In this document: piece after piece, positions 4,987 to 37,900 of the stretch
Position numbering within the stretch: the first letter of the stretch is position 1
Layout of the letters: each line of letters opens with the position of its first letter
Source: Branchiostoma floridae
Lineage: Eukaryota; Chordata; Leptocardii; Amphioxiformes; Branchiostomatidae
NCBI RefSeq assembly: GCF_000003815.2
Contig: NC_049981.1
Coordinates: 28,446,379-28,510,378 of the forward strand
Direction: 5' to 3'
Length of the DNA: 64,000 bases
Translations under genes and position numbers: made by a program
The notes under the pieces: model-generated
What the model saw: the letters and a program-made list of their open reading frames with translations, nothing else
The model's database searches: none
Told to the model about the DNA's origin: nothing

Positions 4987-6128
4987 AGATAACAAGTGAT
5001 CCTGATGTCGTATGGTCACAGATGGAGATCTTTTGCGGGTTCCACACTGGAATTATTAAATAAGGGTCCATGAGGTGTATATTTTCACTGTAGATCCAGG
5101 GACCTCATTATAAGAAATGATGATTTATTTAATTAAGCTCAGATACCAATATTTACATCTTATTTAATCCTACATTGGAATCAAAAGCACTGTGACATGC
5201 ATATCTTGTAACGAACATGGTAATACTATATGCCAAGTCTTTTTGCCACACTTTTGTCTTCTCACTGACCATGAATATGGTAAACTTGTATTGATTGTTA
5301 TCTACTTCCAAAGGAAGGATATTGCAATGTTACATTGTACATGTACCATGAAGTGTCATAAATATTCTTTTTCTTCCTAGTGGAGAATGCCAGCAAAAGA
5401 ATGTGAATTTACTTACTGTAGAACTGTATAGGCGAACATTAGGATCGTCTATGTATTTACTTTATTTCAATGTTTTTCATAGTATAATACTCTGCTGTAC
5501 TTTGAGAACATTTGTACCAATCTTGCTTTTTGGTATCATCAATTCTAGGAAAGTCAGGCTTGTGTAGAGGCCATTTTTTTAAAGCTTGGAAAACATTTTG
5601 ACATTGTGTATTTAAATTACTATTTGTTTTTGGTCAATCATGTTTCAAACTCTGCATCAAATAAATTCTACAAAGTCAGATACACTGAACATTGGTAAAA
5701 GCTTAATACAAGTATGTGTTCGGAATTTGTTCTGGAAGTCACACTTTGTTCCGTTTCATGCTCCTGCAAAACATTAACATACATGTAATGCTAGTAGACA
5801 TTTACAAGTATTGGACAGTTAACTTCAAATAAACAATTGAAATCATTATCTAATGTTGTTGGCAATTTATTTCCATGAACTGTGTATTGAAAAACTTCAT
5901 ACGATGTGGACAACTCCAAGTTTGAGAAGTTCAAATTCGAGTTGATTAGCAGGGAAGTTTACTTTTATTCCGCTAGGAGTCGCTTATGAGCGGTTGGCAG
6001 CAGCAGGCATAACAACCAAACGTGTCAGTAATTTTTATTTTCAATAACTGGCAGATGTAGCTCATTTTACATTTGAAACACCTTTATACTAGTAATTTTA
6101 AAAGTCAATTTATGGCTAAATTAATGTA
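4987..6128 (+). other. PARG 3' untranslated region and downstream intergenic DNA
   Basis: No coding exon is visible after the PARG stop. Canonical AATAAA polyadenylation signals lie at 5660-5665 and 5828-5833, so the 3' UTR is probably 0.7 to 0.9 kb. The sequence is AT-rich and I see no repeat in it. Confidence 0.5.
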
Positions 6129-6129
6129 C

Positions 6130-6292
6130 TGCTACGACATTTTCCACCAACTGTGCGGTGGCTCAGAGTGCTGTTGCGTTACGATGCGGTTCCGTGCGTC
6201 GTCTGCTTCATTAATTAATGCCTAATGGCTTGCCAGTAACCGGCCGGTTTTAACGTTTCCTGCCGTAAATTTGCAAGGAACACAGCTTTCCG
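6130..6292 (+). promoter_or_regulatory. Possible promoter and untranslated first exon of the hydrolase gene
   Basis: A short, locally CpG-richer stretch ends in a good donor (GTAAGG beginning at 6293). It lies upstream of the first coding exon of the hydrolase, which itself starts at a splice acceptor (7187-7188), so an upstream noncoding exon must exist. This is the best candidate by position and composition. No TATA box is obvious. A cap-analysis or RNA-seq junction joining 6292 to 7189 would confirm it. Confidence 0.3.
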
Positions 6293-6756
6293 GTAAGGCT
6301 GATTTTGTCAGCAATCTATATAAACGAAGTTTTCATAACAATAAGTAACTTAATCTCATTTTGCATGATGAAATATTGTATTGGCCGTATGCAGGTAAAA
6401 GTAGGTCATGGCTTATGTTCGACCTATAAGTTATAACGTTAACGTTACCTGTAAAAATGGTGCCGATCTTTCGCCCTTAGATCAAAGGTCACTCCATATA
6501 TCGTTAACATTTGGGAAATGACTCCAAGGGCAAATGTGATGCATTTCTTAAATGTCAAAACTGGGAACAATATATCTCTCTTCAGGAAGAAGTGGTTTAG
6601 GCTCCCTATATTATCAGCTTACTACTAGTTAATCTGATGAACTACAGAGCCAAGGACGAGTTTTTGACAGAATCTTTCAAGGAAGATATTATTGGGTAGC
6701 TTACAAGTAAACATCTAATAGTGAAAATGACATTGCAGCTGGGACATGGCCATGGA

Positions 6757-7220: not shown

Positions 7221-10200
7221 ATGGCCCTAACTACAGGCTGGGGTCGTACAGTCCTCAACACCCTCATGGTAGCGACCGTCATCCCGTACGGGATCGCCAT
7301 ATTCCTGTACGCTAAGTTCGGCTGGCCCACCAACTACCAAGGCGGAAAGCTAGCTGGGCTACATCCGCAGAAAGTCTTCAAGCTGAACTATGCAGCCATG
7401 CAGTGGTTTGTAGTGGGGACTATACAGCACCTGCCTCTGTACTTCTCTGTAACCAGGGCATACAGAACAGCCAGACCAGAAAGCCTTGTTAAGGTACGAT
7501 ATTACACTCAAAACTGATCAAGAAGCCTGATCTTCAAACAGATTTTCTAGTGGCAGAATTGTCATAGAGGCAATGCATGAGCCATCCTGGGAAGATTTAC
7601 ATGGAGATCTACTCTGAGTAGTCAGAGACCACTCAAGGGACCATTAAAATTAAAATCTATATTCTGTGTGGACTAGGGCTGGGTATCGGTACAGCGTACC
7701 GGTACAAAACCGTTTTTTCTTACTGAACCGGTCCAGAAAAACCGGACCTGAATAAATTAGGTGGACCGGATGTTGGACCGATTAGAAAATTAACAGATTA
7801 TTTTATCAGGCATTCACACGTTTGCCGCTTGCAGGTGGAAGAAAATGACAAGAGTGAAGTAGAGTAGAGTTTATAGCTATTTCTACCAAGTTTTACAGTC
7901 AATCGTACAGGTGCAGTTAGCATTGTAGGATTTTAAAACGCCAGTATGAGTCTAATACTCCACCAAACAGATTTCTTTTTAGTGAAATGGACCATTGATA
8001 TGAGTCATACTGAATCAGGTCCAGGTTCAGGTCCGGACCTGGACCTGATCCTCTGGACCTGAACCGGACCTGAATTTTCTGTACCGGTACCCACCCCTAG
8101 TGTGGACTGTTTGGGCCACTATATAGGCCAGAGGTAGTCCTAATGTAGAGGTTGTCACTTACACGGGTTTAAGTGTTCCTTTTGCAAAGGGTCCCACTGG
8201 TCCAAGATGGGCACCTCAAGGTATTTTTTGTAATAAGCCAACTGTATGCACCCTTATACTTCCTATACTTTTATATATTGGCCCCTGGTCAGTTTATAGT
8301 GCTTGAGGTTGTCAAGCAGACAATTGTATGGGCTTCCTTATGTTGCAATGTATAAATCAATGAAGATTTTGTACTGGACCGGGTTAAGATACTTGATAAT
8401 CGCCCAGAATATGTCAGTGACCAATTGTTCTAATCAGTGCATTTGACTGTACTGTTTTCCTTTTGTTAAACCCAGAACATTCCATTTGGCCGGCACGGCT
8501 GTCTCCTAGACGTGTACGTGCCCCACCTTGTTCCAGGACGGACCCCTCCTCCCAAGATGCCCGTGTACATCTTCGTGTTCGGTGGCGCCTGGACCTCGGG
8601 TAGCAGAACACTTTACTGCATGCTAGCCAATCAGCTGGCAGACAAGTTACAGTCTGTGGTGGTGGTTCCAGATTACCCATTGTGGCCTGAAGTGAGTAAG
8701 CTAAACATCTTGACATTTCTCAACATTTTATCAAGTTTACAGTAACGTTAACTGCAATTTTCCTATGTGAATGTACCTTAGTTTATTGTACATGTATACT
8801 CTTACAAGCTAAATGCAGATCATGGTGATACATGTATTGCAGAAATAGAAATACAGTAGAATATTACAGTGGTATTTTACTACAGCTACAATGACAGGTC
8901 CAACCTCTTGCTTCTTAACACAGCAGACAGATGGAGCTTATACATACATTGTATTTCAGTACATGGTACCTTATTGTATATAAATAACACCATCATGGGA
9001 ACAGTGCAGTTGTTCCTGTCCATGGTGCTGAACACCATCACATGAACAGTGCAGTAGTCCCTGTCCATGGTGTTGAACACCATCACAAGAACAGTGCAGT
9101 AGTCCCTGTCCATGGTTCTGAACACCATCACATGAACACTGCAGTAGTCCCTGTCCATGGTTCTGAACACCATCACATGAACAGTGCAGTAGTCCCTGTC
9201 CATAGTTCTGAATATCATCACATGAACAGTGCAGTACTGCAGTAGTCCCTGTCCATGGTTACTAAGGAATATGCATTTATCTGACTATGCAGAAAACTTA
9301 TTCTGAATAATTGAATATTGTATGGTTTGGAAATCAGTTTTCACTTTTTTCTAGATTTTTAGTTCAAAGGAAGTTAGCAACATATTTCTTAGATTCAACC
9401 ATAAGAGTGTAGAATGTTGTCATATTTCCCAGTTTGATCTTTAAATTTTGGGGGATCATTTCTAGGAACAACACGTCCATGCCATGCAGACAGCCATCAT
9501 TGACAGTGTAGCCTGGACCTACAGCAACATTGAGAAGTACTCCGGAGACAAAGTTAGTGATGCCAACTTGTTTCCTACCATCCCTTTAGGCCACCAATCT
9601 TGACAATATCAATCTGGTAATTGTGTGCTCCAGGGCTTTAGCCAGCTCGAAATTTTTTTCCGTCAGCCAATTACAATCGTCGCAAAAACCGCGAAAATTA
9701 ATTAGAAGGACTGAACTGAGACCTTGAAAAACGGGTTTTAATGAGATTATCGTATGCGAAAGGGCGCCGACACACATTGTCAACTATCATAACAATAGCA
9801 AAACAAACAGTGTGTGGCTTTTACAGCTGTGGACGGCGTCCCCAAGCCGCCTGTAGCTTCCACCAAGGATTTTTGTCCGTCAAGATTGACGGATTGGTTT
9901 TAAAATTTTTCCGTCAGACGCAGCAAATTTTCGTCAATTGACGGAAAAACGGACGCTGGCTAGACCCCTGGTGTGTTCACAAAAATATGAATCACCCAAA
10001 AAGAATGTCACCTATTTGAAAGGACATTTGATAGCAACTGTCTTGTATGGAGTTTTTAACAGAAATGATGCACGCTTGTTTTTCAGATGAACATTCACCT
10101 GATGGGACACTCAGCAGGAGCACACCTGAGTGTGCTGGCACCAATGGCACTGGCACGAGGTAAACTTCAACTTCAGAACTTCAGGTTTTAAGACAATAAT

Positions 10201-13059: not shown

Positions 13060-14117
13060 TTTATTGCAAAGTATATTGGGTAAAATAAGTGTAAGTACAT
13101 TATATGGCCCAAGATTCCAATGGACTATTATTTCTCAATGTATGTCATCACCACTACATGTGCAATCAACTTAAAACCATTATAAGAATATAACCATATA
13201 TCAAGATGATATTGTACAGAGATTATACAATGTTTGTCAATGTTGATACCGCACCATAAACCAACAAGAACAAAGTAAATCACCATGAAAATAGTAAATG
13301 ATCTATGAGGAAAAGAAAATGACCATATCTTAGACAATTGTCTTCTCAAACTATTAAAATATTTCTTCATCACAAAATGAACTTGACATTGACTTATTCT
13401 ATTATCTTTGTTTCTTAATTTTGCCATTCCAATTCAAGTAGCAACTGCATTTCTATGGATAACTTGAGGCAGACTTCTACCCATATCCATAATTAAGCAA
13501 ACAGAGTCTCTCCATATACACATAAAAAGTACATTAGCAAGTAAAGCCTACTGTACATGTACTACATAATATCCATTCTGATTCATCTTCATATCTTCAT
13601 CAGGGTCATGAAAGCCAACAGGTAAAAGCTAGGAGATATAATAATACATAATTTACATTTCTACCAACCTCCCTTTAGAATCCACTATTTCATATGAAAA
13701 TTACAACACGGCAAAATAATTGAAAATGTGGAAGATCTGTGTGCATTGCAAAATTAATGCTTCCTTAAAGCTACATTGTATGTACTGTCCACCTGTTGGG
13801 AAAGGTCGCAGTCAAGTTTCTGGGACCACTGGTAATTTAACATCAGATTGAAAAATATATTAAATCTGACCAAACTTAACATGACTTATTCATTCTCTGC
13901 AAACAGACAACTGATTGTACATGCACAACACACGGTTTGAGACTTACCCTCTGTTCACGTCACATTCACTTAGGGACTAATGGTCCATGATTAACAACAA
14001 TGTTACAATGGCCAAGGTACATGTAGGTTGTACAAACAAAAGAACTGAAACAGACTGGTTTCCTATTGTATTGTGTCATTCCAATTTCACATGAAAAAGC
14101 TTCCAGGAAAGGCACAT
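13060..14117 (-). other. Probable 3' untranslated region of the UBAN gene
   Basis: No coding exon seen. On the minus strand an AATAAA signal is read at 13060-13065, giving a 3' UTR of about 1.2 kb including the duplicated zinc-finger copy. Confidence 0.45.
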
Positions 14118-14364
14118 AGATTCTCAACACCTAAAAAAAGGTGTTTAACCATCGATGCACTTCTGCACATGCTCTTCAAACTTGACCTGGTCGAAAAACT
14201 CCCTCTCACAGCGAGGGCACACCCTCCTGTCCTCCCCACAAAGATTCTCAACACCAAAAAAAAAGGTGTTTAACCATCGATGCACTTCTGCACATGCTCT
14301 TCAAACTTAACCTGGTCGAAAAACTCCCTCTCACAGCGAGGGCACACCCTCCTGTCCTCCCCGC
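14118..14364 (-). repeat. 125-bp tandem duplication covering the zinc-finger end of the UBAN gene
   Basis: Two nearly identical copies, about 14118-14241 and 14242-14364, each contain the zinc-finger codons, the TAA stop and adjacent 3' UTR. Differences are a few substitutions plus one extra A in a short A run. The upstream (functional) copy joins to the rest of the coding exon. The second copy lies after the stop and is noncoding as spliced here. Near identity indicates a recent duplication or an assembly artefact. Confidence 0.9.
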
Positions 14365-17300
14365 CAGAACCGCTCTCTGCAGAATCCTGCCTCCCTCCGT
14401 CTGCACTGTCCACTGCTACCATCTGTGGGAGGTGGGCCTGGTTCAGCCATGGACCAGCCTGGTTAGTGTAAGGGTTGGGGGTCGTGGGGCTGCCACGAGC
14501 CATCAGGCCAGGCTGAAGTCCCATCTGCTGTGAGACAACCATAAAACTTGTTATCACCAAGCACAGTAGGGGCATCTTCTCTGGATAGTTTTAAAGAACG
14601 CTTACAGATAGATGTGCAAAAGTTAGGTGTGACGGATCGTTCAGTGTAATATAACCAGCTGCTGCTGCACCGCGTGCCTGCGAAGCTGGTGTGTTACGCC
14701 GAAGGGCGGTTATACCGGCTATATAGATACAGATACAGATACAGAATATGATAATATGAAATTAGTTGTGAAGAATCCAACATTTGTATATGCTGCCTTA
14801 AGCTATATCACTTGCAAATATCATCCAACAAAGTGAGTGTACCATTACAGAGTCAGTAAGCTTTCTGAGTTCTTTACTCCAAGGGCGCCTCATACTGTTT
14901 GTATGAGAGTTAAGAAAGGCACACCCTGAGTTAAGACAAAATGCCAATCGAAAAGGATTGAAACTCCCTCTGGTAGTGTAAAAATTGGGATTAAAAACAC
15001 CTGTGGGTGGGCTGAGAATCAAACCCTTGACCTTGTGGTCATGGCAAGAGAAAACCATCAAACCACTTCACTGCACAAAGTAAAGCTTTGTAGTTAAGAG
15101 TCACTGTGGATACTCACAGGATTGGGGATGGCAACGTTGACCTGTCTGTTACATCCCATCCCAGGGATCCCATACAAGGCTGCAGCTGCAGGGCTCATCT
15201 GGAAAGCCTGAAACAGATTACAGTTGAGCATTTCTGTTGTCTCTCTTCAATACAAGAACTTTAAGGCATACATTTTACATCTGATATAAGAGGAAGAATC
15301 TGCACTTAAAAAAAGCTTGGAGGCGTTCTAACTTTGATATTAAAAAATATAGACGAGAGAATGCTTTAGTTAATACTTTTCTCAACTCAAATTGCTTCTT
15401 GACCTGATTTTATTCAAATAATTTTCCTTATGTCAGAACACAAAGAATCTGCAATATCAGAAGAAAAGCTGCTTGAAGGTGAGGACAGTTAGAAGTTTTT
15501 TGTCACCTCAATCTGCTGCTTGTATTGAGTCTTCTCATATCTCTCCCGTGACAGCATGCTGTTTAGGCTTTCACACTGAGGATGGGGAAAAGAAAGACAT
15601 CAACATGATAGTCATTAGTGCGAGTACACTTCTTCTGGTAAATACAGATTAATTTCTCACCTCGGTTTTAGATAATTGCCAACATACTTCATCAGACATT
15701 GCATACCTCAGTACTGAGTTTGTTGATGAACTCCTGCATCTGCTTGAGTTTTGCTTCGTAGTCAGTTTTCTGGTTGTTTCTCTCCTGCTGCTCTGCCTCA
15801 AAGTCCTCCTTATAGAAGGCAGACTGGGCACTGATGGCTGCGTTCTCATCTACAGCACGCTGAAGCTCACTCTTCAGCTCATCCACCTTCCTCTGAAGGG
15901 CCTGTATGTCTCCTTGTGAACTGCCAAACTGACCCTGGTTTTAAAAAAAGAAGTTAGACTTACAAGATGCTTTTAGTGTCAAAAGTGTATAAAATAACAA
16001 GGCATTACTTCACTTATCATATTCAGCCTTTTTCCCCACCTTTCTTGAAATCATTGATTTTATTGAATTCTGTAATACATTATGTATACAATGCACGTGA
16101 ACCATTTAGAAGTCCAAAATCATTCATATACATGTAGTATAGAATTGTAGTCCTTAAATCTCAACCTGATTCCTCAATAGCCCTTTATAACAATTACAAT
16201 GCAACTGAACTTTCCACAACATTTGTGTTCTTAACCCTAGCTTCTCCCTACTGCTTAACTCCATGACCAACACAATTGTGGTGTCAAGAGGCTACCTTTG
16301 CAAAGGAGAAAGTCAAACTACAATTTTTTAGGTGCTATGTGTAGCGAGACTGAAAGCTGCCAAGGAGGACGTGGATCAACTCACCTGTGTTGAGCTCCCT
16401 GCTGATCGTCTCAATTTTTGAGAAAGTTGGAAGATCTGTGCCTCATACTCCTGCTTCTGAAGTTGTAGGGTTCTTTCTAGTTCCTTGACTTGCTGGTGAA
16501 TATCCCTACTTCCCTGCATGGCAACAGCACAACCAAAAATGATTTCAAAGTATTATGATTTTAACAAAGATGGCTAATGAAAGATCCCAACCATTTGTGA
16601 AATACTTTGTGAAGTTCTTTGTTTTATAAACCGTCATGAATTTCTTTCTAATTCTGTCTAATGTGTATTTTCATGCCTTGCTGTGAGACTACATGTGGAC
16701 CTTGGCCAAGCCTGCAGTATCAACTTTGGAACAGAGCCAAACCAGCCTTTCTATCATGCAAGTCTCATATGTTACACCATTTTTCACCTCACATCCTGCC
16801 ACTACGCTATATTTAAATACACGTATCTGTGTACACACACAAGGACAATTAAATATATACAGACCAAAAACAATACCTCAGTTTTCATGGAGTTATTCAA
16901 ATTTTGCCAACAAAATGCTGATGTGAGCATGCTAGCAGCAATAAGATCAAGAGCCATACCCCTTGTAACCTCCCATCCACATGGTCAGCCTTCTCCTGCT
17001 GTAAGGAATGTTTCTCCTGCTTCAGCTCATCGCTCATGCTCAGAACATTGTTCTGTAGTCTCTCATTCTCCAACCTGAATAACTCCAGCCAGGTGGACTT
17101 GATCTGGTCTGACTTCTGAAGGGCATTAACCTGAAACAAAACAGCGACAAGGAAGTGAAATACAAGCTGGAAAAGTAACACTTGAAACCAAACCAATGTG
17201 TTCACTTAAGAAGCAATGCCATTTAGACACTTTTCTTACACTGTTACTGTTAGAATTCTGGTAGAGTTAAAGTGAAAGTTCAATCTAGTTTGTATAGAAC

Positions 17301-19910
17301 ATGCAACAAGTATTACCTACAGCATTGTCTCCAGTTTTCGTGTTCTACTAATTGTTTGTGAGCCAATGTTGGCAAGTTGTTATATCTATCATTTTGATAA
17401 AACAACAATACAATTTCATCAATTCCATGACAACAAGTTTAGATTTTTTCAACAGATGACATCAAATTTCGTTCTGTCCCAATAAGCAAATTTCTGTCTA
17501 GGGACGGAGGGACGAGTCCTGACTCTTGGAGTGAGCCCTGATTAGTAATAATATTATAAGACCACAATCTCTTTCTGTAACCTTTTATTACACATGCTGT
17601 GGAGTTCAATCATAAATGTATACAAAATGTGAAGACTCCCTGTTTGTACCTTTTCTAACAGTTGTTCAGCTTGCACCTTCCCATCACTGCTGCTGGCATC
17701 CCTGATGGCCTCCTTCATCATCTTTATCTCCTCATCTTTCTGTGCTAACTGTTCTCTCACTGACTTTAGTAAGTCATCACTGTTTTGGGCAGACTGAAAA
17801 AATGATGCTGGTGTTACATGTTATATGTTGCATGGTGTTGGTTCATGAAAGTTCATTCCAAATGTAACTGCCAGTTGGATTTGCTCAAACTACAACATGC
17901 AAGAATACATTAATATTTGATATGGTGTTGCATATATCTTGTGTGGGAATATCATTGTAGTTGACAAATCTTTTGCTTTCCAGATGTTATACCGGGTAAT
18001 GAACTTTTTCATCTTTTATTCATCCAAGGACCTTATGGCAAAGTGCATAACTACAAGAAATGAAATGTAAAGTCTGAAGATGTTTCATGAACACCTAAAT
18101 GGGATAGTTTTGAAAGGTTACATTACTATTACATTACAAAAGTAACCCATTACCTTTCTAAACAAATACACGTTCCTAATTAATTACAAGTACCTATCAT
18201 CCCATGATTGTCATCCATAACCAATTATGTGTGATTGAATCTGTGGTTTAACTAAACAGCAATTCTGTAATACACACAAAACAATTATAGCTTCCTTTGG
18301 CCAAAACTGACAAAATAATCTAATAAAACTTGACAATGTTTCCTTGAAAAGTCAATGAACTTTCAGCTGAACGTTGGCCACAGTAAAACACAATAGAAAG
18401 GGTGAGATCATACTATTTAAAGATATGCCTTGACAGGGGATGAAAGGGAACATGCACCCCCAGGGCCAATGGCGTGGTAATGAAGTACACTGGAAGTAAT
18501 GGTGACAACTAACAACATTCCTGTCTTCCATTACAGAAAGTTTAAACATTGCAGAAGTGCTAGTGTTTATTCCTGTGTTGATGCTATATCATCAGTATAT
18601 GTTAAAAATTATGAAACAACATTTTCGTGTTCAATCATTACATGTAATAGCTCTACAAAATTAGCTGAAAATTATACAACATGAAACAAAAGTTTGCAAA
18701 CATAATCAAAGTTTGGAAAAGATTACAATTTTCCCAACTCACCATGAAGTTTCTCATATCCTGTCCTCTGTCCTTCAAGACTTGGTCCAAGTGTCTTTTC
18801 AAGTGAGAGTTTTCCCTGACCAGATCATCAAACACTTCTTTAGACACGCCTGGTCCTGGTGTAATAAGACTCTCCAGCTTCTTCCCAGACATCTTACCGA
18901 ATCTGATGAGGGGACAGAAAGAGTTGCAAGTAACCATACATTAAAATTAGTTTTGAAGCTTTAGCAGTTGTTTTGAAGCTCACTGATATCAGGATGAAAT
19001 ATTTATAAGATGTTTCAACCAGAGGTGGGATTTTTTATTACCTGGAACTTCAAACTTGATACACCACCATTTACGTAATCAACCAATCAATCCAGCAATT
19101 GTTTCTAAAAAAAAGAGGATTCTGAAATTATGAAAGGTTGAGATATCTTCCTGATAAAGAAGCAGATTATATCTCCTAAATGGTTGTAAACAAGTATTTC
19201 TTGACTGTATGGAGAAGACCAACTATTAGGGCAAGCACCATACAAGCAAAATATCTAAGTGTACATGTTGTTATAATATTCATGTCTAACCTGTCCTGTG
19301 CCCTCTTCAGTAACAACTCATACTGGTTAGCTCTGGTTTTGTATCTCTTGGTCTCCTGTTGTTGTTCATGTAACAGAAGGACAAACTGTTCCAACTGAGA
19401 CTTGTCCAACTGAGACTTCTCCTTTTGCTGTTCCTTCAGCTGATTATTCTCATTCTGAAGGTGCTTGGCAAATATTATCAACTCCTGTAATAGACAAGGC
19501 AAATGCAAACAATTAATGGTTTGATGCTGTAACAACAGAGTTACAAACTGAAAAATAAAACATAGAGTATAATATAATCAAACATCAATAGCTTAATCAC
19601 ACCATTATAATAGTAAATAAGTAGATTATAAGTAGAAAACCAATTTTTCTATACAATATTACCTTTTGTGAGAGTGTGTCATATTACCTCTTTTCTACAT
19701 TGCTGCTTCTGGTACTTTTCTCAAATTATAGCATACAACTTATCATATATATTATATACATATATGACTTTTCCCTTTACTCTTCAAGTTTAAGTTTAAG
19801 TCTTTTACAATTCAAAGTTTTATAAATCCAAGTTTATTAAAATAATTTTTTTATGAAGGACATCTTACCTTGACTTTCTCTGGAGCGACGGTTGTTTGTG
19901 ATTCTGCCAT
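14270..19910 (-). CDS. UBAN-domain coiled-coil protein with C-terminal C2HC zinc finger (NEMO/optineurin/ABIN group)
   Basis: Likely a ubiquitin-binding scaffold in NF-kB or selective-autophagy signalling. Exons in transcript order: 19869-19910, 19291-19484, 18743-18902, 17650-17793, 16960-17130, 16385-16513, 15707-15934, 15507-15575, 15121-15207 and 14270-14527. They total 1482 nt, exactly 493 codons plus stop. The protein is almost all heptad-rich coiled coil. The UBAN-type core FYKEDFEAEQQER is at residues about 320-332; binding of linear or K63 ubiquitin follows from the family, not from data here. A Pro/Met-rich linker (residues about 380-465) precedes a C2HC finger (CPRC...H...C, residues 470-490), the arrangement seen in NEMO and optineurin and also in ABIN-2. 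I cannot decide between these paralogues. The start was chosen at the ATG in the first recognisable exon; an open frame continues upstream to 20036. The last coding segment is tandemly duplicated downstream. Confidence 0.8.
14586..14748. repeat. Possible LINE 3' tail with ATACAG repeats
   Basis: A GC-richer block (GCGAAGCTGGTGTGTTACGC and following) ends in a short (GATACA)n run at 14725-14745. LINEs of the CR1/L2 type often end in such microsatellites. It lies just beyond the last UBAN-gene exon boundary. Confidence 0.4.
14985..15060 (-). repeat. tRNA-derived SINE remnant
   Basis: On the minus strand, AGTGAAGTGGTTTGATGG and AGGGTTTGATTCTC are spaced like degenerate A and B boxes. It lies in a UBAN-gene intron, 60 bp from an exon. 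Confidence 0.35.
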
Positions 19911-20660
19911 GTTGTCCCTATCCCTTTGGCTTTTAACTTGAGATAGATGAACAACTTTAACAAGAACTTGTGAGGTCTTTGCCTGTCTTGAAGTCAGATA
20001 CAAATAGATTTGTCCTGACTTTTCTGTTGTCCACATAAGAGAAGGGACAAAAAATATGAAAAATTACTGATACAACATTATGGCTGGCTAATCTTAAATT
20101 TCTAGAAACTCAACGAGCACAAACTACTAATTAAAAGTAGTTTATAAACTGAAATAGATTTTGACAAATCAGCCACAACAATTATGATCTTAGGATGGGC
20201 TGAAAATATGATTGTCCTGACTAAGTTCAACTCTCAACTGTCAAAATTGTACTTTAAAACCACATTACATTAGACTCTATGATAAGTAATAATTATAAAA
20301 CACTACTGCTAGCTGCTCTAGCACAATTCTATTGAAAGCTTCTTGTCCTGATTTTAGTTTTATATAAATTTTGAATAGCTTCCCACAGCCACGTTTACAC
20401 AGCTGTATTGTGTCACGTTAATAATACAAATATTAACACATTTCACGACAACAAAGGAACTGATCAAAATTTCCATCGAATTTGCTTCCCAGTATAACAC
20501 AATCATCCGAATTACGTATTACGAGTGCTACAGTAACTAGTACTTTGCCACAAAATTACAAATCATGTCAAGATCTGGAGTTGAGTAGAGTCAAGTTGAA
20601 AATAGTCAAGTTCTTATATCCAAATTATTAACACAATGATACGAAACCTTTACAAACTCA

Positions 20661-20725
20661 CCTGAAACCAAGAATGTGGCGTTGTTGGAATAAAGTAGCG
20701 AGGAAATGACGATTGGTAAAAAAGA
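20661..20725 (-). other. Possible untranslated first exon of the UBAN gene
   Basis: On the minus strand a good donor (GTGAGT) follows position 20661. It would splice to an acceptor just upstream of the ATG exon (a pyrimidine-rich CTCAAG acceptor near 19935). It lies next to the CpG-rich promoter block. Only the donor side is well supported; the 5' limit is a guess. Confidence 0.35.
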
Positions 20726-20933
20726 TGGCTATTTTAAATGCAAGTGGTTTTTCAACTTTTTGTGAAAGACGGAACAAAACGCCACGCAATCTAAACCCCG
20801 AAGAAACGCCAAGTAGCGACCTCGTAAAAGCGAAATTTCGTCATCTAGAGGACCCCTAGTTCCTACAGAAACGGAAATAGGTACGTTCTATATTCAGAAA
20901 TCTTCTATAGACTGTCCAATCTCGATGTATTTC

Positions 20934-21002
20934 GGGACTTTCCATGGCCAACCCTCCGAAATCGTGACGAACCGGGATTTCCGGGTGTGTAGGGGAATCC
21001 CC
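20934..21002. promoter_or_regulatory. Cluster of three NF-kB-type binding sites
   Basis: Within 69 bp are GGGACTTTCC (classical kB site), GGGATTTCC (9-bp Rel-type site) and the fully palindromic GGGGAATCCCC. The first and third are exact matches to GGGRNWYYCC. Binding is not shown; the density and the downstream gene's likely NF-kB role make it credible. Confidence 0.5.
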
Positions 21003-21097
21003 TGACGTCAACAACTCATGCGTACTCTTCGTTCTCGTTCCCAAAATTGACACTACCAAACTTGGGAACGAGAAAGAACACGGTATCTGTGACGTCA
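21003..21097. promoter_or_regulatory. Paired CRE sites flanking a short inverted repeat
   Basis: TGACGTCAACA occurs twice, at 21003 and 21090. Between them lie two 13-nt inverted arms, TTCTCGTTCCCAA and its complement, 17 bases apart. CREB/ATF binding is inferred from consensus only. Confidence 0.45.
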
Positions 21098-21795
21098 ACA
21101 CAAATGTTTTCTTTCCCCCTGCCCGCCATAGCTGCCAGTTGAACGGACGAGGAACATTCTGGACAAAATGACATAACTGACCAGGAGTAACGTGACAAGC
21201 GACCAATTAAGCGCCACCGCATGCCTTAAAATCCTGCTTAAATCGGGAGAAGCCTTGGAAGTGGTGTGGTTGTGTTGGAAAGAGAGATTCTTGCGAAGTT
21301 TGACAGTGCACTGCATAGCATGACACTTTGACGAAACTCAACTGTTGGCTGAGATTTGGAAAGTTAATGCGCTACTATATGCCCTGTATGCATCATCAGG
21401 TGGTGATTGTGAGTTGGCAGAAGTTTCTGGAACATTCAGGACGAACACAGCCTGACAGAGTTGTCTCAGAGACCAGCTGCTGGGTAGATTATTTATAGTG
21501 AACTTAGAGTACTCTATCTATGCAGAGCATCTTGTTTGCACTGCATGAGCAGACGGCATTGCAATTGTTGTTAGTGTTAAAAGTTCAGTTCAAAGTCGAC
21601 TTGTGTTTTCAAGCAGCGTTTTTACAATCTAGGGGAGGTGTAGTACAAAACTTTCTATCTACGGATCTGTGGCAAGTTGTTTTGTAATACATTCACATCT
21701 TTAAATCCTTGTAAGAGCTTGTAACGGCCATGACCTCTCAGATGTTGCATCCTAAAATGCTTTACATTACGTTACATATGCGTAAGTAGTACTGC

Positions 21796-22371
21796 ATGGT
21801 ACGACCTAGTATTGCTGATGGCCGAAGTGTGTACAGGTTCCTATGTTTTCTATTCTCGTATGCCCTGTACACCTTCCTTGTGATTGCTGCCATAGTATGC
21901 ATGCTGGCGTATGATGTTCTGCGTCGCTATGTCGGCAGAGAGAACCTGTTGAGAGTGCTAGCTTCTGGTCTGAACGAAGATTTAGGAGACCAACAAACAG
22001 TTCGTCACAGCGGCGGGGAGGTTACCATCATACCCAGGCAACGAACGCCGCTGAACAGGGACAGATCTGAAGAAGACTCTACCACATCATCCAGCGCTGA
22101 TGCTAGAACTAGCTGTTCGAACGACGATTTAGCAAACGACGAGCAGAGAGTGACCAGAAGAAAAGGAGGTGGAAGGACGTCAGAGGAAGAAAGTTGTAAC
22201 ACAGACAGGGCAAGGTACAGCAAGGACATCAGATACCTTGAGATTGAAGTTGATACAGCAGATTATCACAGGTCTGTAGGTAAAGGTAGTTCAGAAGGTG
22301 ATCCTACAGAAGACTACTGTATTGGAGACATTGAAGTCACGGAGAACATGGCAGTAGCCACAAATGGCACC
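21796..22371 (+). CDS. HERC N-terminal extension with predicted transmembrane helix
   Basis: The first coding exon adds 192 residues before the point where HERC3/HERC4 proteins normally begin (Met193, MFCWGA). Residues about 15-39 form a 25-residue hydrophobic stretch without charge ([20 protein letters not shown] and onward), followed by basic RR, which suits a signal-anchor. Residues 60-190 are low-complexity and acidic/Ser-rich with several Asp/Glu clusters. A stop codon in frame 9 bp before the ATG argues that this ATG is the real upstream limit. Whether translation starts here or at Met193 cannot be settled from sequence. Confidence 0.7.
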
Positions 22372-25300
22372 ATGTTCTGCTGGGGTGCAGCCCGGAATGG
22401 GGAGCTCGGACTGGGAGGTATCGAGGAAGATGTCATCCTAGCACCGAAGGAGCAACCATTTGGGGCAACAAAGGCAATGAGGTAATAATTGTCAAATTAA
22501 GCTACTAGTAGAACTTTCAAGCTTGCCATCTATGCGAAAAGAAGATAGACCAAAACTGAAACTTCAAAATTAGAATCCACTTTCACTTTTGATTACCTAT
22601 AGACTGTTGACCTAACGTTATACAAAGACTTTGTTTCTACTACTTTTTATTAGATTGATTATTGGAAACTTTAATGTGACTTGATTGTCTTGCAGGTGAT
22701 GTGATTGTGTCGTAACTTAGGAATCGGTCTCTATATTATAACTTAATGGCCATACTGGAAAGATATTGGAATAAGCTATTTCATGATCAGTGCATACACA
22801 TGACTCAGTGTTTCGTACGTAGGTAACAGCTATTTGCTCTTTAGTACGTGTAGACATGCAATTCAGACATGGCACTTAAGGTTGTTGGAACCCTCTCCAG
22901 GGAAGTGAGCTGTGGACGGCAGCACACGGTGTTTGTACTGGCAGAAGGAACTGTCTACACTTGTGGCTCCAACGACTACGGACAACTGGGCCAGGACAAG
23001 GGGCACAAGAGGCCAAGTAAGAACCGCTGACCAGGGGGGAACGTTTAGCAGTTTACTTAGAGGTCAAGTGCACCACAAGACAGTATTTTTAGCAGATACT
23101 GAGGTTGACATTTAAGTCTAGATATTCTAGTCCAGAGCATTCTATTTTGTCAGCTGTGTTTGTCATGGCTTCTTGACATAGATACAGGATTACAAATGTA
23201 TCTCCAGCTCTCAAATATATCTGTACCCTCATTGTTAGGGGGGTATATCTATCTAGAACATGGCCACTACCCCTCAGCCAATCAGAGCCCTTCAATTACT
23301 GTATTTATATCCCCATGGTGCAGAAAAATATGGTACTATGAAAAAGTGTGGTACTATCAACTCATTTGCATTAACCGAACCACACGTTTTTGATAATAAG
23401 TACCACGCTTTTTTCAAAGTACAATACTTTTTCTGTTCCACTTGTCGGCTTATACACTGTGCTAATTGCCTACGGGATTAGAGAATTTAAAGGGATCAAT
23501 ACAAAGTATTATATATTTCTCTGTTATGATGTCAAGCCATATTGTTCTTGAACATGTGATTGTCAGTAATACCAGCATTTGAGCCCAACTTCTGTGCACA
23601 CATATGCAGCTGTAATCACAGCCCTGGATACGCAGAGCATACAGCAGGTGTCCTGCGGAGACTATCACAACCTGGTGGTCAACGACAAATACCAAGTCTT
23701 CTCCTGGGGGTATGATGACTGTGGACAGCTCGGACACACGCTTGAGGCAGGGGGCAATAACTCAAGAAGGCCCAGGTGGGTGTGCTAGCTATGGACTGTC
23801 TGGTTCCACTCACATGTCATTGGTGTAGTGAAACAAGGTCTATCTACCTTTCAAAAACCATGAACACATTACACAGCATGTCCATATCACAAGGGATCAA
23901 AATTTGAAGGTTAACTGCCATACCATAGCTGCTTGGAGACCCACTGTTGAAATTGACCTTCATTTTCCCATCCAACGCTACCCACTAACCAAATATCAGA
24001 AGGATCCATCCACAGCATTCACAGACACACACGTATGCACACTCACATGCACGTACGGCTACGCGCACACATATCCTTTTTCGTAAATACAATTTAAAGT
24101 CTGCTTTGAATATAATTCTGTACATTGGCTTAGAGTCCTTCCTCTGAGATGCTAGCTATGGCCTGAAATTGCTAGCTGTAGACTGAGGCCGAGTGTTGTA
24201 ACATATTCTATGTTGTTGTAAGCTGCTTTGTTTCTGATCACTATCTCTCCCTCTCTATGTATAGCCCTTTTTTTCAGCATTAACTCTTGATTAGAAGATT
24301 TGCAAAAAAATGCCTTGCTAACTAGCAGTGCATCTTTGTGCCTGAACTTTACACTGCCAATATTTTATGGTCTTATAAGTCCAAAATGACAAATAAGATC
24401 TTCCATATGGTTTCACCTGTGGTTGTGTTTAGGGGAGAAACTGATGATGACCCTGACCTAGAGGTCATTCATAATTCTGAACCCAGGTGAGGAGCATGAT
24501 GGGAATGGCATCCATCTAGTTCATGGCTTAGTTCATTATTGATAATCTTAGAAATGTGCTTATTGGTCTGCTTTTGGGGTTGTACTAATTTTTTTTACAA
24601 GATCATCTTCTTAGGCCAACTAGACTTGAGCTGAGGAGAAAAAATGTGCTTACAAAGACTACAAAGAGCATGTGATTTTGTGGTTTGTAGTAACCGCTTT
24701 TTTTAAAAGACGATTTTCTCAGACCAACTATATTATGCTTGAGCTGAGCAGTGGGATGTCTAAAAGAAAAAATGTTTTTATTCTTATTTTTTAAATATCT
24801 TTTGCACATTACATTGCCTATGCATTTCTGCTTTGGCTCTTGACTTCTGTCTTTTATTTCTTCTTCTTTTATCCTGCGGCACTGCCATTGACATACCATA
24901 TAAGTGATTGCATTAGACATTTACCGCTCTACTCTAATGTTCATGACTGTATTTTCCTTATACAACGTAGTGTAGTACATGCTTATGGTACACTCGTTTT
25001 ACTTCTTATAGATATCAATACATGAGTTTCTGATGAAGTTGTTTTCTCCCATGACAGGATGGTGAAAGAGTTGTCAAGCTTGCAGATAGTGCAGGTGGCC
25101 TGTGGAGGCAAACACTCCCTGGCTCTGTCCAATGGTAAGAATATTAACTTTTATGGTGTTGTTGTGTGAGTGCATACAGTGAATTTCATCTGTAGCTTTT
25201 TACACACTGTATCAGTATTAGATAATGATCTGGTCAAAGAACTGAAAGGTTGGTGTGCCAAATAACAATTTCTCAAGCAATTGGATATGATTTTGGAAAT

Positions 25301-31983: not shown

Positions 31984-34900
31984 AGAATTGTTTGATTTCC
32001 TGTCCTTAAGTTTAAGTAACCATGAATTTGTTCTGTTTTTTTGCACCTCTGCAGGATATCTACTTCTGCAGTTTTCCCTTTGTGTTTGATGCTCAGGCTA
32101 AGACAGAGCTTCTCCAAACAGATGCCTTTCTACAGATGCAGGTAGTATGATGATGCATTTTACCGGCACTGACTCATTTCATTATCAATTTACTGGATGG
32201 ATAGGCAATATTATAACAATTGATTGAGTTGAAAACTAGTTTGATAACAGAAATTGACAGTAGTTATTGATTAGTAAGTAAATTGATATTACAAAAAAAG
32301 CCAATATGGATTTGTGGGATCTTCTTTGACTGTGCTTGATGACTATCCACCTGACCAAGATGGTGTTCTATACTTCCCTGAAAGAAAAATACTGTAAATG
32401 TTGAAATTTTCATGTGGTAACCTCTTGACAGGGAACTCAAACCACCGCAAAAAAGTTTTTTTTAACTCTGCTCACCCTTGTTTCAAACGCAAACTAGAAA
32501 CCATGGCCACTGCCAAAACTTCATTTTTTCCTACCGGGAAATTAACTCCCTGTGAACTTAAAGGCATTATGTTACAGTACCAGGTAACATGATCATGAAA
32601 TTATGAAGAAACTCAATGCTTTTTTTTTGCAGCTGGCAGTTGAGGAGGTGCAGGCTCGTAACTTCCAGAGCCTGTTCCTGCCCATCGACCCAGTCAACCC
32701 CTACCTGGTGCTGATCGTGTCCAGGGAGAACCTGGTACAGGACACACTGAACCAACTGATGAAACAGTCCAGCCCTGATCTCAAGAAACCACTGAAGGTG
32801 GGAGGACTCACCTAATAGCTTCATAGAATCTCCTGAATATTTTATTTGAACACCTGATACTAGGGGTGGGTACCGGTACAGAAACTGCAGGTCCAGGTCT
32901 GGTTCAGGTCCAGAGGATCAGGTCCAGGTCCGGACCTGGAAGTATTAGACTGACACCGGTGTTTTGAAATCCTACAACGCTAACTGCACCTGTACGATTG
33001 ACTGTCAAACTTGGTAGACATGGCTATAAACTATAATCTGCTTCGCTCTTGTTATTTTCTTCCACCTGCAAGCGCCAAAACGTGTGAATGCCTGAACAAA
33101 TAATCTTTTAATTTTCTAAAAGGTCCAACATCAGGTCCACCTACTTTTTTCAGGTCCGGTTTTTCTGGACCGGTCCAATAAGAAAAACCGGTTTTGTACC
33201 GGTACACTGTACCGATACCCAGCCCTACCTGATACTGTAAATGCATTTAAGTTCTCTGGGATTTAATTTCGCGGTAGCGGGAAAAAGGACTTTTCGCGGT
33301 GGATTTAAGTTCGCGGTAACACCATAGACTGCGGTCTAATACCTTAATAGTAAAATATTCGCGGTGGTTTTAAGTTCGTGGTGAAGTGGTCACCGCGAAA
33401 ACTGCGAACATTAATCCACCGCGAACATTTCTGCATTTACAGTAGTATAAACGTGTGATAGATACAATCATATAGTTCGACCAGTCTTGTACCTTTGACC
33501 ATTTAGCACCCTTTTGCAATAAGTGAGACACTGGAAGTTAAGTATATTGGTGCTACTGTAAGTTTCCTTCTAGCTTTCATGCTGTTGTATTACATTACGT
33601 ACATTCTTTAGAAGCATGGCAGAAGGGTCATGCTTTACTCTACACTTTATATCCAGGTGATCTTTATTGGAGAGGAGGCAATAGATGCAGGTGGTCTGAA
33701 AAAGGTATGAGTTATCACTTTTTGTAACAACCATAAGATTGCAGACAAACATACAAAAAAATATTCTCTTTTTAATTCATTTCCACTTGACTTGTTATTC
33801 TCTGAAACAGACCACTCAGTTCTATTATGAAACAGTACTTAGTACTTTTTTTTCTTGCTAGGAATTCTTCTTGTTGATCATCCGAGAGGTGATGGACCCC
33901 AAGTTTGGTATGTTCCGATACTACGAGGAGACCCAATCAGTGTGGTTCCATGACAGGGTAAGGGTCATCTCATACAAATACAATATGTCACCAGCTGTAA
34001 CTAAGCTCATGCAGTAACTGTTATTGTTTGAAGTTTGTAAGACTTGACACTGCACATTTGGTGTATGAATCGTAGTATTCCTATATTAAAGGTTCAGTTT
34101 GTTTGTTTGTTTATTCTTTATTTAACCAGGGTAAAGCATGTCGCCTGACGGCGTTTTTCAAAGCCCCCTGGGGGGAGAACCCCGAACATAAATCATACAT
34201 TAAGTTCAACAGAACCAAATCAACTTCAATAACATAATCATACATAACGTTCTATGAAACCAAATTACTTAGGTAACATAAACATAAAGATTGTACAAAG
34301 TCAGATTTAACTTTACTATCATAACCTCCCTACAATTTTGATGTCACATTTGTATTAGTCTTTCCAATGTAGACGGTGACCAAATATTTGAAAGGTTGCT
34401 CATGCAAACTCAAAGAGTGTTACAAAAATCATTTATGTAAGATGGATAAATATGTCGTGCAGACACCACATAAAGTGGACGTTTTTAAACATTTTGTACG
34501 TTCTGTTTTGTTTTAAATCATACTTTTATACCCGATGCACCTTATGTATGATATGATATTCGAATCCTAAAGTCAAGGTCAACACACATTTGGTTGGTCA
34601 TTGGTTGCTCAGGGATTGCCATATGGTGGAAAGAGAGCCTTATAGTCAGTTAAGAACAGGGCTCTAGCCAGCGTCCGTTTTTCCGTCAATTGACGGAAAT
34701 TTGCTGCGTGTGACGGAAAAGTTTTTAAACCAATCCGTCAACCTTGACGCACAAAAATCCTTGGTGGAAGGTACAGGCAGCTTGGGGACGCTGTCCACAG
34801 TCGGAAGCCACACACTGTTTGTTTTGCTATTGTTATGATTGTTGACTTTAGTGTGTCGGCGCCCTTTCGCATACGATAATCTCATTAAAAACCCGTTTTT

Positions 34901-37900
34901 CAAGGTGTCAGTTCCGTCTTTCTAACTTAATTTTCGCGGTTTTCGCGACAATGGCAATTGGCTGACGGAAAAAAAATTCGAGCTGGCTAGAGCCCTGGTT
35001 AAGAAGTAGGGAAAAATTAACAGAATAATTATCCCTTTGTGTCTTTTCTTTTCATCTAGTCATTTGAAGAGAGCTCCATGTTCTTCTTGATCGGCGTACT
35101 TTGTGGCCTTGCCATCTACAACTCCACCATCATAGACCTGCACTTCCCACTTGCACTGTACAAGAAACTGATGAAAAGGTACATATCATAAGCTCAAATC
35201 TATCAAATAGCTTAGAATTAGATTTAAAAGAGATATTATTTTTGGCATAAACTTGCAATAAAGTTATTATTATCAATGTTTCAGTACAAAGCACAGAAAC
35301 TATCCTACGCGATATATATTTACTTGATTCTGTATTGTATTACAATATACATGTCAATTTTTTATGGGGCATAAGTGGCAACTCTAAAGACATGCAGAAA
35401 AATCATTGTCAGTATATAATCAATTGTATGCCATAAACAAGAGAGCACATGTGTTATGATGCAAAAGGCACAGAATGACTAAGACAGTCACCATAAAATG
35501 CCATATGTCAATCATTTTACATGTAAATGATGTTAGACTCAGTGTACCAGAAAAATAAACAATCAAGCCAGACCTCTGTTCCATGTCGTGTTCTTTAGGA
35601 ACGTAACCTTGGATGACCTGAAACAGATCCAGCCAGATGTGGGCAGGGGTCTGGAACAGCTGCTGGGTTACAATGAGGATGACTTCGAGGATGTCTTCTG
35701 TTTGAATTTCACAGTAAGTTTCTCCTCATGGGATGTTCTATTGTATCATACAGGTGATTAGAGCTGCGTATCATTTGTAAAAGAACCAGCCTCTGCTACA
35801 TGAATACAATGCTTAAAGCTGACATGCATGCTGCACCAAAGGACAGCTGTATACAACTTGACCAACACAAATACAGAATCTGATGTGTTGGATCAGAATT
35901 CAGATGGAAAATCATTAGCAGGGTAGCTGAGATTATGATGGATTAATTTGGTGTCTTTAATTCATGAATCTTATTATTTTGTACATTATAAGCATTACTA
36001 TTTTTCCCAAATATTTGTACAAGTGGAAGTTACTGTTCCTACATTGTTCTTCCCCAGATTGCTTGTGAATACTATGGCAGCATTGAGACAGTGGAACTGG
36101 TAAAGGATGGCAACAACATTCCTGTCACCAAGGAAAACAGGTTTCTGTCAATTCTATCAGTTTTGTTACAGAGGAGCACATGATTTTGGAATTGACTTAC
36201 AAATATATGACTGTTCAAATATTGTACCCTTTTTAGTACTTTCCATACCAAGTAATAATTTGTGCTGAAGAATATAATGTACTTTCATTCATTCATTGAT
36301 TTTGAGGAATTTTTCAGAAAAGTGTAGAATTCATCATAGTATGAAAAGTATGAAGAACAGTCCTCACCTTGTATCTTCTTGTTTTCCAGGGAAGAGTATG
36401 TGAATGCCTACGTGGAACATGTACTGAACAAGTCAGTACAGAATCAGTTTGATGCCTTTGGGACTGGCTTCCACAAAGTGTGTGGAGGAAAAGTACTGGT
36501 AGGTCACTTTAAGAAACATAAAATGGTAGATTGAAACCTCCCAAATGAGAAGTGATAACTGTTCCTAAGATTTGAAAGTTTGTGCTCTGTAAGTTCCATT
36601 TATCTGGGTTGTTTGCTATTGTCTATTTTTGCCGGTGCTTAGCACCTGCTATGAGACGGGAGAAGCGGTTGACAATGTATGGATGCATGGATGCATGGAT
36701 GGATGGATGGATGCATGGATCGGTCACTTTAACCAAATAGCCCTTCTATACGTGCTATTGCGTAATCGAGCCAGCGTGGCCGAGCGGTCTACAGCACGGT
36801 ACCTATCTTCCGTAGATCGTAGGTTCGAACCCCACTTGCTAAATTTTTTTTTTCTTTGTTAGACAAAATCTCATGTAGTGTTTTTTTAATAGAAGAAAGA
36901 CCAATTCAGTAATTCGATGTTTAAAAACTCTTTTTTCGTGTGATTTTATTTAACATCCAGGCTTTGTCCAAAATACGCACCGGCCAGCTTTTTTCAGAAG
37001 CTTTCTTGTTTGAGTCTCAATATACATGTAGCATCAGTAGAAAATATAGACTGATGCACAGCACAGAAGAAAAGTGGATCAAGGATGAACTTTGCAACAG
37101 ACCTAAGTCAGCTGACAGATAAACTACATGAAGTATGCCATGTGGCAGAGGCTGCCATGGATAGGACTGATTTAGCCATAGCCTCAGCTGTAGGTCAATT
37201 AGCTATCTTATCTTTGTTGACCAAAGGTAATATTGATAATGTTTATATTGTCATAATTTTATAATAAGTGCTCGGGTTGCCTTGGCAACGTGTATTAGAC
37301 TGATAGTCACCCTGATATTTATGCTAATCATATTTCTGGTTGAGTTCATAGTCAATTGTGTAAGATTTGTATACCCTTACATGACATATGTTTTTTCTAG
37401 GAGTTATTTCACCCCAAAGAGCTGATGGCCATGGTGTGTGGGAATGAGAACTATGACTGGGATGAACTAGAGAAGAATGTGGAGTACAAGGGTGTGTACC
37501 ACAAGAACCACCCCACAATACTCATGTTCTGGGACATCTTCCACCAGATGACACTGGAAGAAAAAAAGAAATTCCTTTGTGAGTACACAAGCATTATTTG
37601 ATTGTTTTGTAATTTAGTATGAATGTCAGTGCTTCTGTACTGTAACTTTGTTAATTTGGAATCTACAGCTCAAGGGATTGATCTTTCATTTTAAGAAATA
37701 ACTGCAGAATATATTGTTTCAATTGCAAACTTAAAACACTGCAAAAACTTGCTCTGCTTCCTATGGTAAAATACCCAGGAAAATACTAGTAATTTACAAT
37801 ATTTGGAACATTTGATGACCTATAACAAATGTGACTGCATCCTAAGAGTAAAAAAGAATCAAAACATTCTTAATGTTTTTCCACTTCCCTTTAGTGTTCC

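Follow-up and report, generated by a model that had tools for sequence, protein, structure and literature searches.

Does a chordate outside the vertebrates place the gene for a ubiquitin-reading regulator of NF-kB signalling under the direct control of NF-kB itself? UBAN proteins act upstream of IKK, where they read ubiquitin signals, and a stretch of 64 kb of amphioxus DNA, referred to here as the window, contains what appears to be a gene for such a protein. A first-pass annotation of this DNA described three kB sites and an abutting CRE in the promoter of a NEMO/optineurin/ABIN-type gene, and proposed that the gene, and perhaps a divergent HERC ligase gene along with it, is controlled through a negative feedback loop. 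The analysis reported here suggests that positions 20934-21097 are best explained as the regulatory core of a divergent promoter. It further suggests, at a probability of roughly 0.6, that this promoter receives direct Rel and CREB/ATF input for at least the UBAN-like gene.

Direct reading of the DNA and a pattern scan recovered all of the originally described sites. Two are on the plus strand: kB site 1 (GGGACTTTCC, 20934-20943), and the 9-bp kB site 2 (GGGATTTCC, 20974-20982). The third, kB site 3 (GGGGAATCCCC, 20992-21002), is near-palindromic and reads GGGGATTCCCC on the other strand. Together the three occupy a total span of 69 bp, 20934-21002. A perfect CRE (TGACGTCA, CRE 1, 21003-21010) adjoins kB site 3 with a spacer of zero, the junction falling at 21002/21003, and the two thereby form a kB-CRE composite arrangement. 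A second perfect copy (CRE 2, TGACGTCA, 21090-21097) had been overlooked. These are the only two occurrences of this sequence in the window, and both continue into TGACGTCAACA. We take kB site 1 to be of the Ig-kappa/HIV type, a classical Rel site, and the other strand of kB site 3 to be the MHC class I enhancer A site.

The kB/CRE block sits between two head-to-head gene models, the minus-strand UBAN-like gene and a plus-strand HERC-type gene, within a region rich in CpG (20501-21300, by CpG o/e) that is the putative divergent promoter. The CpG o/e of 1.33 at 20701-21100 is the maximum among the 400-bp windows scanned, for which the median is 0.27. Further peaks occur at 33101-33500 (1.32), 6101-6500 (1.22), 9601-10000 (1.18), and 34701-35100 (1.10), so a CpG peak alone is no proof of a promoter. 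The peaks near 33.0-33.6, 9.6-10.0, and 34.7-35.1 kb coincide with interspersed repeats. One such repeat is present at 7672-8101, 32859-33227, and 61586-62022, its copies being about 90-93% identical, and the CpG peak at 33001-33600 partly overlaps it; further repeat pairs are found at 896-1258/12576-12937 and 9630-9970/34657-34998. The peak at 6001-6500 (CpG o/e 1.1-1.2) overlaps no repeat found, has no gene assigned to it, and could be another promoter. A repeat origin for the block 20660-21300 was considered and rejected: no other copy is present in the window at E values up to 1, and the sole further match in the window is the block's own inverted repeat.

Elsewhere, the window contains a minisatellite (8986-9236; 45-bp unit, 5.6 copies, 92% matches) and, across 44000-63700, minus-strand open frames that encode cadherin repeats. 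Five of the ten frames tested match PF00028, four of them above the cut-off (best match 1.4e-23, at 56097-56507), and FAT4-like models match the frames of this region too.

Divergent arrangements are common in amphioxus, in which 25% of neighbouring genes (3,950/15,884) are reported to lie in bidirectional promoters, with an enrichment for housekeeping functions (PMC6292497). YY1-like motifs flank the block on both sides and, together with this enrichment, fit constitutive use. One rival explanation builds on such use: the kB- and CRE-like words could have arisen by chance in a CpG-rich block that serves as an ordinary constitutive divergent promoter. The CREs indeed contain CpG and sit in the CpG peak, and at least two copies of the CRE palindrome were present in 30 of 300 dinucleotide shuffles of the window (863 Ns removed beforehand). 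Yet none of 20,000 composition-matched local shuffles, confined to 20660-21260, contained two.

For the kB sites, chance fares poorly in both kinds of shuffle. The strict consensus (GGGRNWYYCC or GGGRWTTCC, overlapping matches merged) identifies four sites in the window, three of them in the cluster. At least three strict sites within 80 bp were found in 0/300 window shuffles and 0/20,000 local shuffles; at least two were found in 4/300 and 22/20,000, respectively. With a looser consensus, at least three sites within 80 bp occurred in none of the window shuffles and in one of the local shuffles. The least favourable control for the cluster scanned the real window with 1,000 motif pairs whose columns had been permuted: at least three sites in 80 bp turned up for 8 pairs, and at least two for 46. 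Because eight pairs cluster as strongly somewhere in the window, the rate is put, cautiously, at about 1% for an arbitrary motif pair. The kB consensus forms, moreover, were picked post hoc, with the sites already seen, so the enrichment of the cluster over chance is clear but not astronomical.

The sites also are near-optimal, as judged by a scan of the window with approximate kB and CRE matrices. On this approximate scale, kB site 1 is the top 10-bp match of the window, scoring 15.6 bits out of a maximum of 16.0; both of the highest 9-bp matches lie within this block; kB site 3 is the top 11-bp match, at 19.8 of 19.8 bits, the next site scoring 13.3, about 6.5 bits lower; and the CRE matrix scores the two palindromes highest. 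In the 10-bp and 9-bp lists alike, fourth place goes to a site at 54259-54268. Matrix scan and shuffles alike bear out the cluster as first described, and its origin by chance appears unlikely.

Sites that are real could still serve other proteins. Schnurri/HIVEP zinc-finger proteins bind kB palindromes, and the window contains only two CCGGAAR cores, one of which (an ETS-type CCGGAAA, minus strand, 20978-20984) overlaps kB site 2. The kB-shaped sites might then be used by ETS or HIVEP proteins without any Rel control. ETS binding, however, would account for one site of three, and kB site 1 is presumably a Rel site of the classical kind, which together make this explanation improbable. Direct Rel input remains the preferred reading, and amphioxus Rel is reported to activate NF-kB luciferase reporters in HEK293T cells (PMC5719053).

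The block contains other elements. An inverted repeat lies between the CREs (21028-21078; arms 21028-21049 and 21057-21078, 86% complementary) and includes a perfect 13-bp core, TTGGGAACGAGAA, with one copy per arm in opposite orientation. Considered as single-stranded DNA, the segment 21020-21090 folds with a z of -5.75, and none of 200 shuffles is as stable. The pattern scan also found an ISRE/IRF-like sequence, GAAACGGAAA, on the plus strand at 20868-20877; matches to GAAANNGAAA number six in the window, and this one is suggestive only. Among the STAT, AP-1, CSL, and heat-shock consensus forms tried, none has a match starting in 20560-21300.

What would this promoter control? On the minus strand, a hand splice model places the UBAN-like/zinc-finger gene at 14270-20023, with exon 2 from 20023 and a product of 471 aa. 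The model comprises nine coding exons with matching phases and a frame that is open throughout: 19869-19910, 19291-19484, 18743-18902, 17650-17793, 16960-17130, 16385-16513, 15707-15934 (the UBAN-like exon), 15118-15207, and 14270-14527 (zinc finger and stop). Two of its donors are weak (GTACAA and GTATGG). A tandem duplication (14113-14362; 2.0 copies of 125 bp, 96% matches) covers the zinc-finger end of the last exon and the stop codon, and its second copy is downstream of that stop. Upstream of exon 2, a putative non-coding exon 1 (20662-20880, minus strand) would end at a consensus donor, CAG|GTGAGT, after base 20662. TATAGAA motifs on the minus strand at 20886-20892 and 20903-20909, two among 21 such motifs in the window, prompt the guess that the gene starts near 20880. 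As evidence for a start, consensus matches to TATA, Inr, and YY1 were dropped, being too common or too weak to place one.

The resemblance of the spliced protein to UBAN proteins is faint at full length and sharper in its UBAN-like exon. A Pfam scan of all 471 aa gave no match above the cut-off (best, YabA, E 0.042; CC2-LZ absent), and the best PDB matches were NEMO UBAN chains (E 0.017-0.069), which make up 5 of the 13 listed. When the UBAN-like exon alone was used as the query, a fragment picked after the full-length Pfam scan had given nothing, CC2-LZ (NEMO) topped 27 Pfam matches, with an E of 4.2e-5 and a score of 24.3 bits where the cut-off is 35.3. Generic coiled coils rank behind it, at E 5e-4 and worse; unrelated coiled-coil or short families, for example bacterial YlqD (E 5e-4) and YabA (E 8e-4), were set aside as generic. 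The aligned core (YKEDFEAEQQERNN here, YKADFQAERHAREK in NEMO) shares Y, K, D, F, A, E, and one R; at two further positions NEMO has R and E where this protein has Q and N. The stretch YKEDFEAE aligns with NEMO YKADFQAE, and both acidic residues, which we take to occupy the positions of OPTN D474 and E478, appear to be kept. In OPTN, D474 and E478 are reported to be required for linear ubiquitin recognition and for NF-kB suppression (PMC4999505).

The C-terminal finger, CPRCEREFFDQVKFEEHVQKC, has the C-x2-C-x12-H-x3-C spacing of a NEMO/OPTN-like finger. Its nearest PDB relative is TAX1BP1, with a chain E of 1e-5 when two fingers are counted and 0.069 for the best single stretch; NEMO finger chains are weaker (E 0.72 and 0.94), and all of its Pfam zinc-finger matches are below the cut-off.

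These comparisons bear on the sign of any loop. If Rel drives the gene and the protein is a NEMO orthologue, the loop would restore or amplify signalling rather than damp it. NEMO chains are the closest to the UBAN-like exon in PDB: they take the top five places among the 28 chains listed (E 0.0041-0.0092) and 11 places overall, and no optineurin or ABIN chain is among the 28. The spacing of the finger presumably fits NEMO as well. The N-terminal half of the protein, on the other hand, has no match in Pfam or PDB to the NEMO kinase-binding region (aa 44-111 in human), which is weak evidence at a divergence where UBAN itself is barely detectable. The combination, Rel control of a NEMO orthologue, is rated very unlikely. 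A fair description of the protein, going by its sequence, is NEMO/optineurin/ABIN-type, short of proven membership and not narrowed to one of the three.

On the plus strand, the gene models and Pfam support the divergent, head-to-head ligase gene that had been proposed. An open frame (21790-22481) with the putative first coding exon splices in phase to an RCC1-like segment at 22901; more RCC1-like segments follow downstream, with a HECT segment near 37.9-38.1 kb. Two separate later segments match RCC1 (E 1.4e-21) and HECT (E 2.6e-22), which identifies a HERC-type ligase; we take it to resemble HERC3/4. The part of the frame at 21790-22347 contributes 186 open codons upstream of the segment at which proteins of the HERC3/4 kind usually start. 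It includes a strongly hydrophobic 19-residue stretch and might represent a membrane-anchored extension.

The main target might then be the HERC-type gene, or both genes equally, with the link to the UBAN-like gene incidental. The orientation of kB and CRE sites usually makes no difference to their function, in line with this explanation. The divergent arrangement of the genes favours it too, as does the frequency of bidirectional promoters in amphioxus (PMC6292497). Distance points the other way: the HERC frame (open from 21790) is farther from the kB sites than the putative first exon of the UBAN-like gene (donor 20662), although both starts are themselves inferred. This explanation is rated as improbable as use by ETS or HIVEP proteins. 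Joint control of the HERC-type gene is a separate matter; it is a possibility, given how common divergent promoters are in amphioxus (PMC6292497).

The preferred reading has Rel and CREB/ATF acting directly on the UBAN-like gene at the least, and suggests the following model. The three kB sites would be occupied by Rel/NF-kB dimers, and the two CREs by a bZIP protein of the CREB/ATF type; where kB site 3 touches CRE 1, the bound factors could cooperate or else compete. Most likely, the chief effect would be increased transcription of the UBAN-like/zinc-finger gene, whose putative first exon is just downstream, and the HERC-type gene may use the same promoter. Such Rel-driven, presumably inducible, expression would close a loop on the NF-kB pathway, because UBAN proteins act as readers of ubiquitin upstream of IKK. 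The loop would be negative if the protein is ABIN- or optineurin-like, and replenishing or positive if it is NEMO-like. Of the feedback loop first envisaged, then, the kB sites at the UBAN-like gene stand; its negative sign is not established, since NEMO, optineurin, and ABIN are not separated. Negative feedback specifically is a tentative suggestion, well short of even odds.

Searches of the literature on amphioxus with NF-kappaB binding sites and Rel, or with optineurin, returned no title on this promoter; most subscription journals fall outside the coverage of these searches, and no claim of priority is made. It is rather doubtful, though conceivable, that the locus presents a non-vertebrate UBAN gene under direct Rel control from a divergent promoter with three kB sites, two CREs, an IRF-like site, and an inverted repeat whose perfect core measures 13 bp. 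If so, NF-kB feedback through UBAN proteins would predate the vertebrate genome duplications, and would be coupled to a HERC-type ubiquitin ligase gene. The locus would then provide a directly testable case for the age of transcriptional feedback via ubiquitin-reading NF-kB regulators, and an example, outside the vertebrates, of a divergent promoter through which one immune-responsive switch governs both an NF-kB regulator and a HERC-type ligase.

Parts of this arrangement are familiar. In the E-selectin, interferon-beta, and MHC class I promoters, kB sites lie close to an ATF/CREB-type site, as they do here, and GGGGATTCCCC presumably is common to this block and MHC class I enhancer A. The amphioxus block differs from these promoters in its zero-spacer kB-CRE junction and in its second CRE, beyond an inverted repeat. 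A20 and ABIN reportedly mediate inhibition of NF-kB in a basal chordate, to go by the title of a 2014 article in PNAS by Yuan et al. The expression of amphioxus A20 is described as LPS-regulated (PMC7644770). In mammals, the UBAN proteins ABIN-1 and ABIN-3 (TNIP1 and TNIP3) are said in a review to be up-regulated by NF-kB-activating stimuli and to be implicated in NF-kB inhibition, whereas ABIN-2 is stated not to be induced (PMC8286839).

Human OPTN offers a close vertebrate precedent. According to PMC2660438, its promoter depends, for basal as well as TNF-induced activity, on a kB site directly upstream of the start; the paper also lists putative CREB sites and proposes negative feedback. A review notes that this feedback role is without support from in vivo studies (PMC8286839). 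The likeness is threefold: a UBAN-family gene; one or more kB sites near the start, which in amphioxus is a putative one; and CREB-type sites. The differences are equally plain. The OPTN promoter has one kB site and several Sp1 sites, and its function has been assayed (PMC2660438); the amphioxus block, known from its sequence, has three kB sites and two perfect CREs, and the pattern scan found no GGGCGG between 20560 and 21300. A divergent HERC-type gene is present here, and the text available for PMC2660438 mentions none beside OPTN. Because the promoter of one human UBAN gene is already on record as containing a functional kB site (PMC2660438), the advance, should the amphioxus promoter work as proposed, would be evolutionary and not mechanistic.
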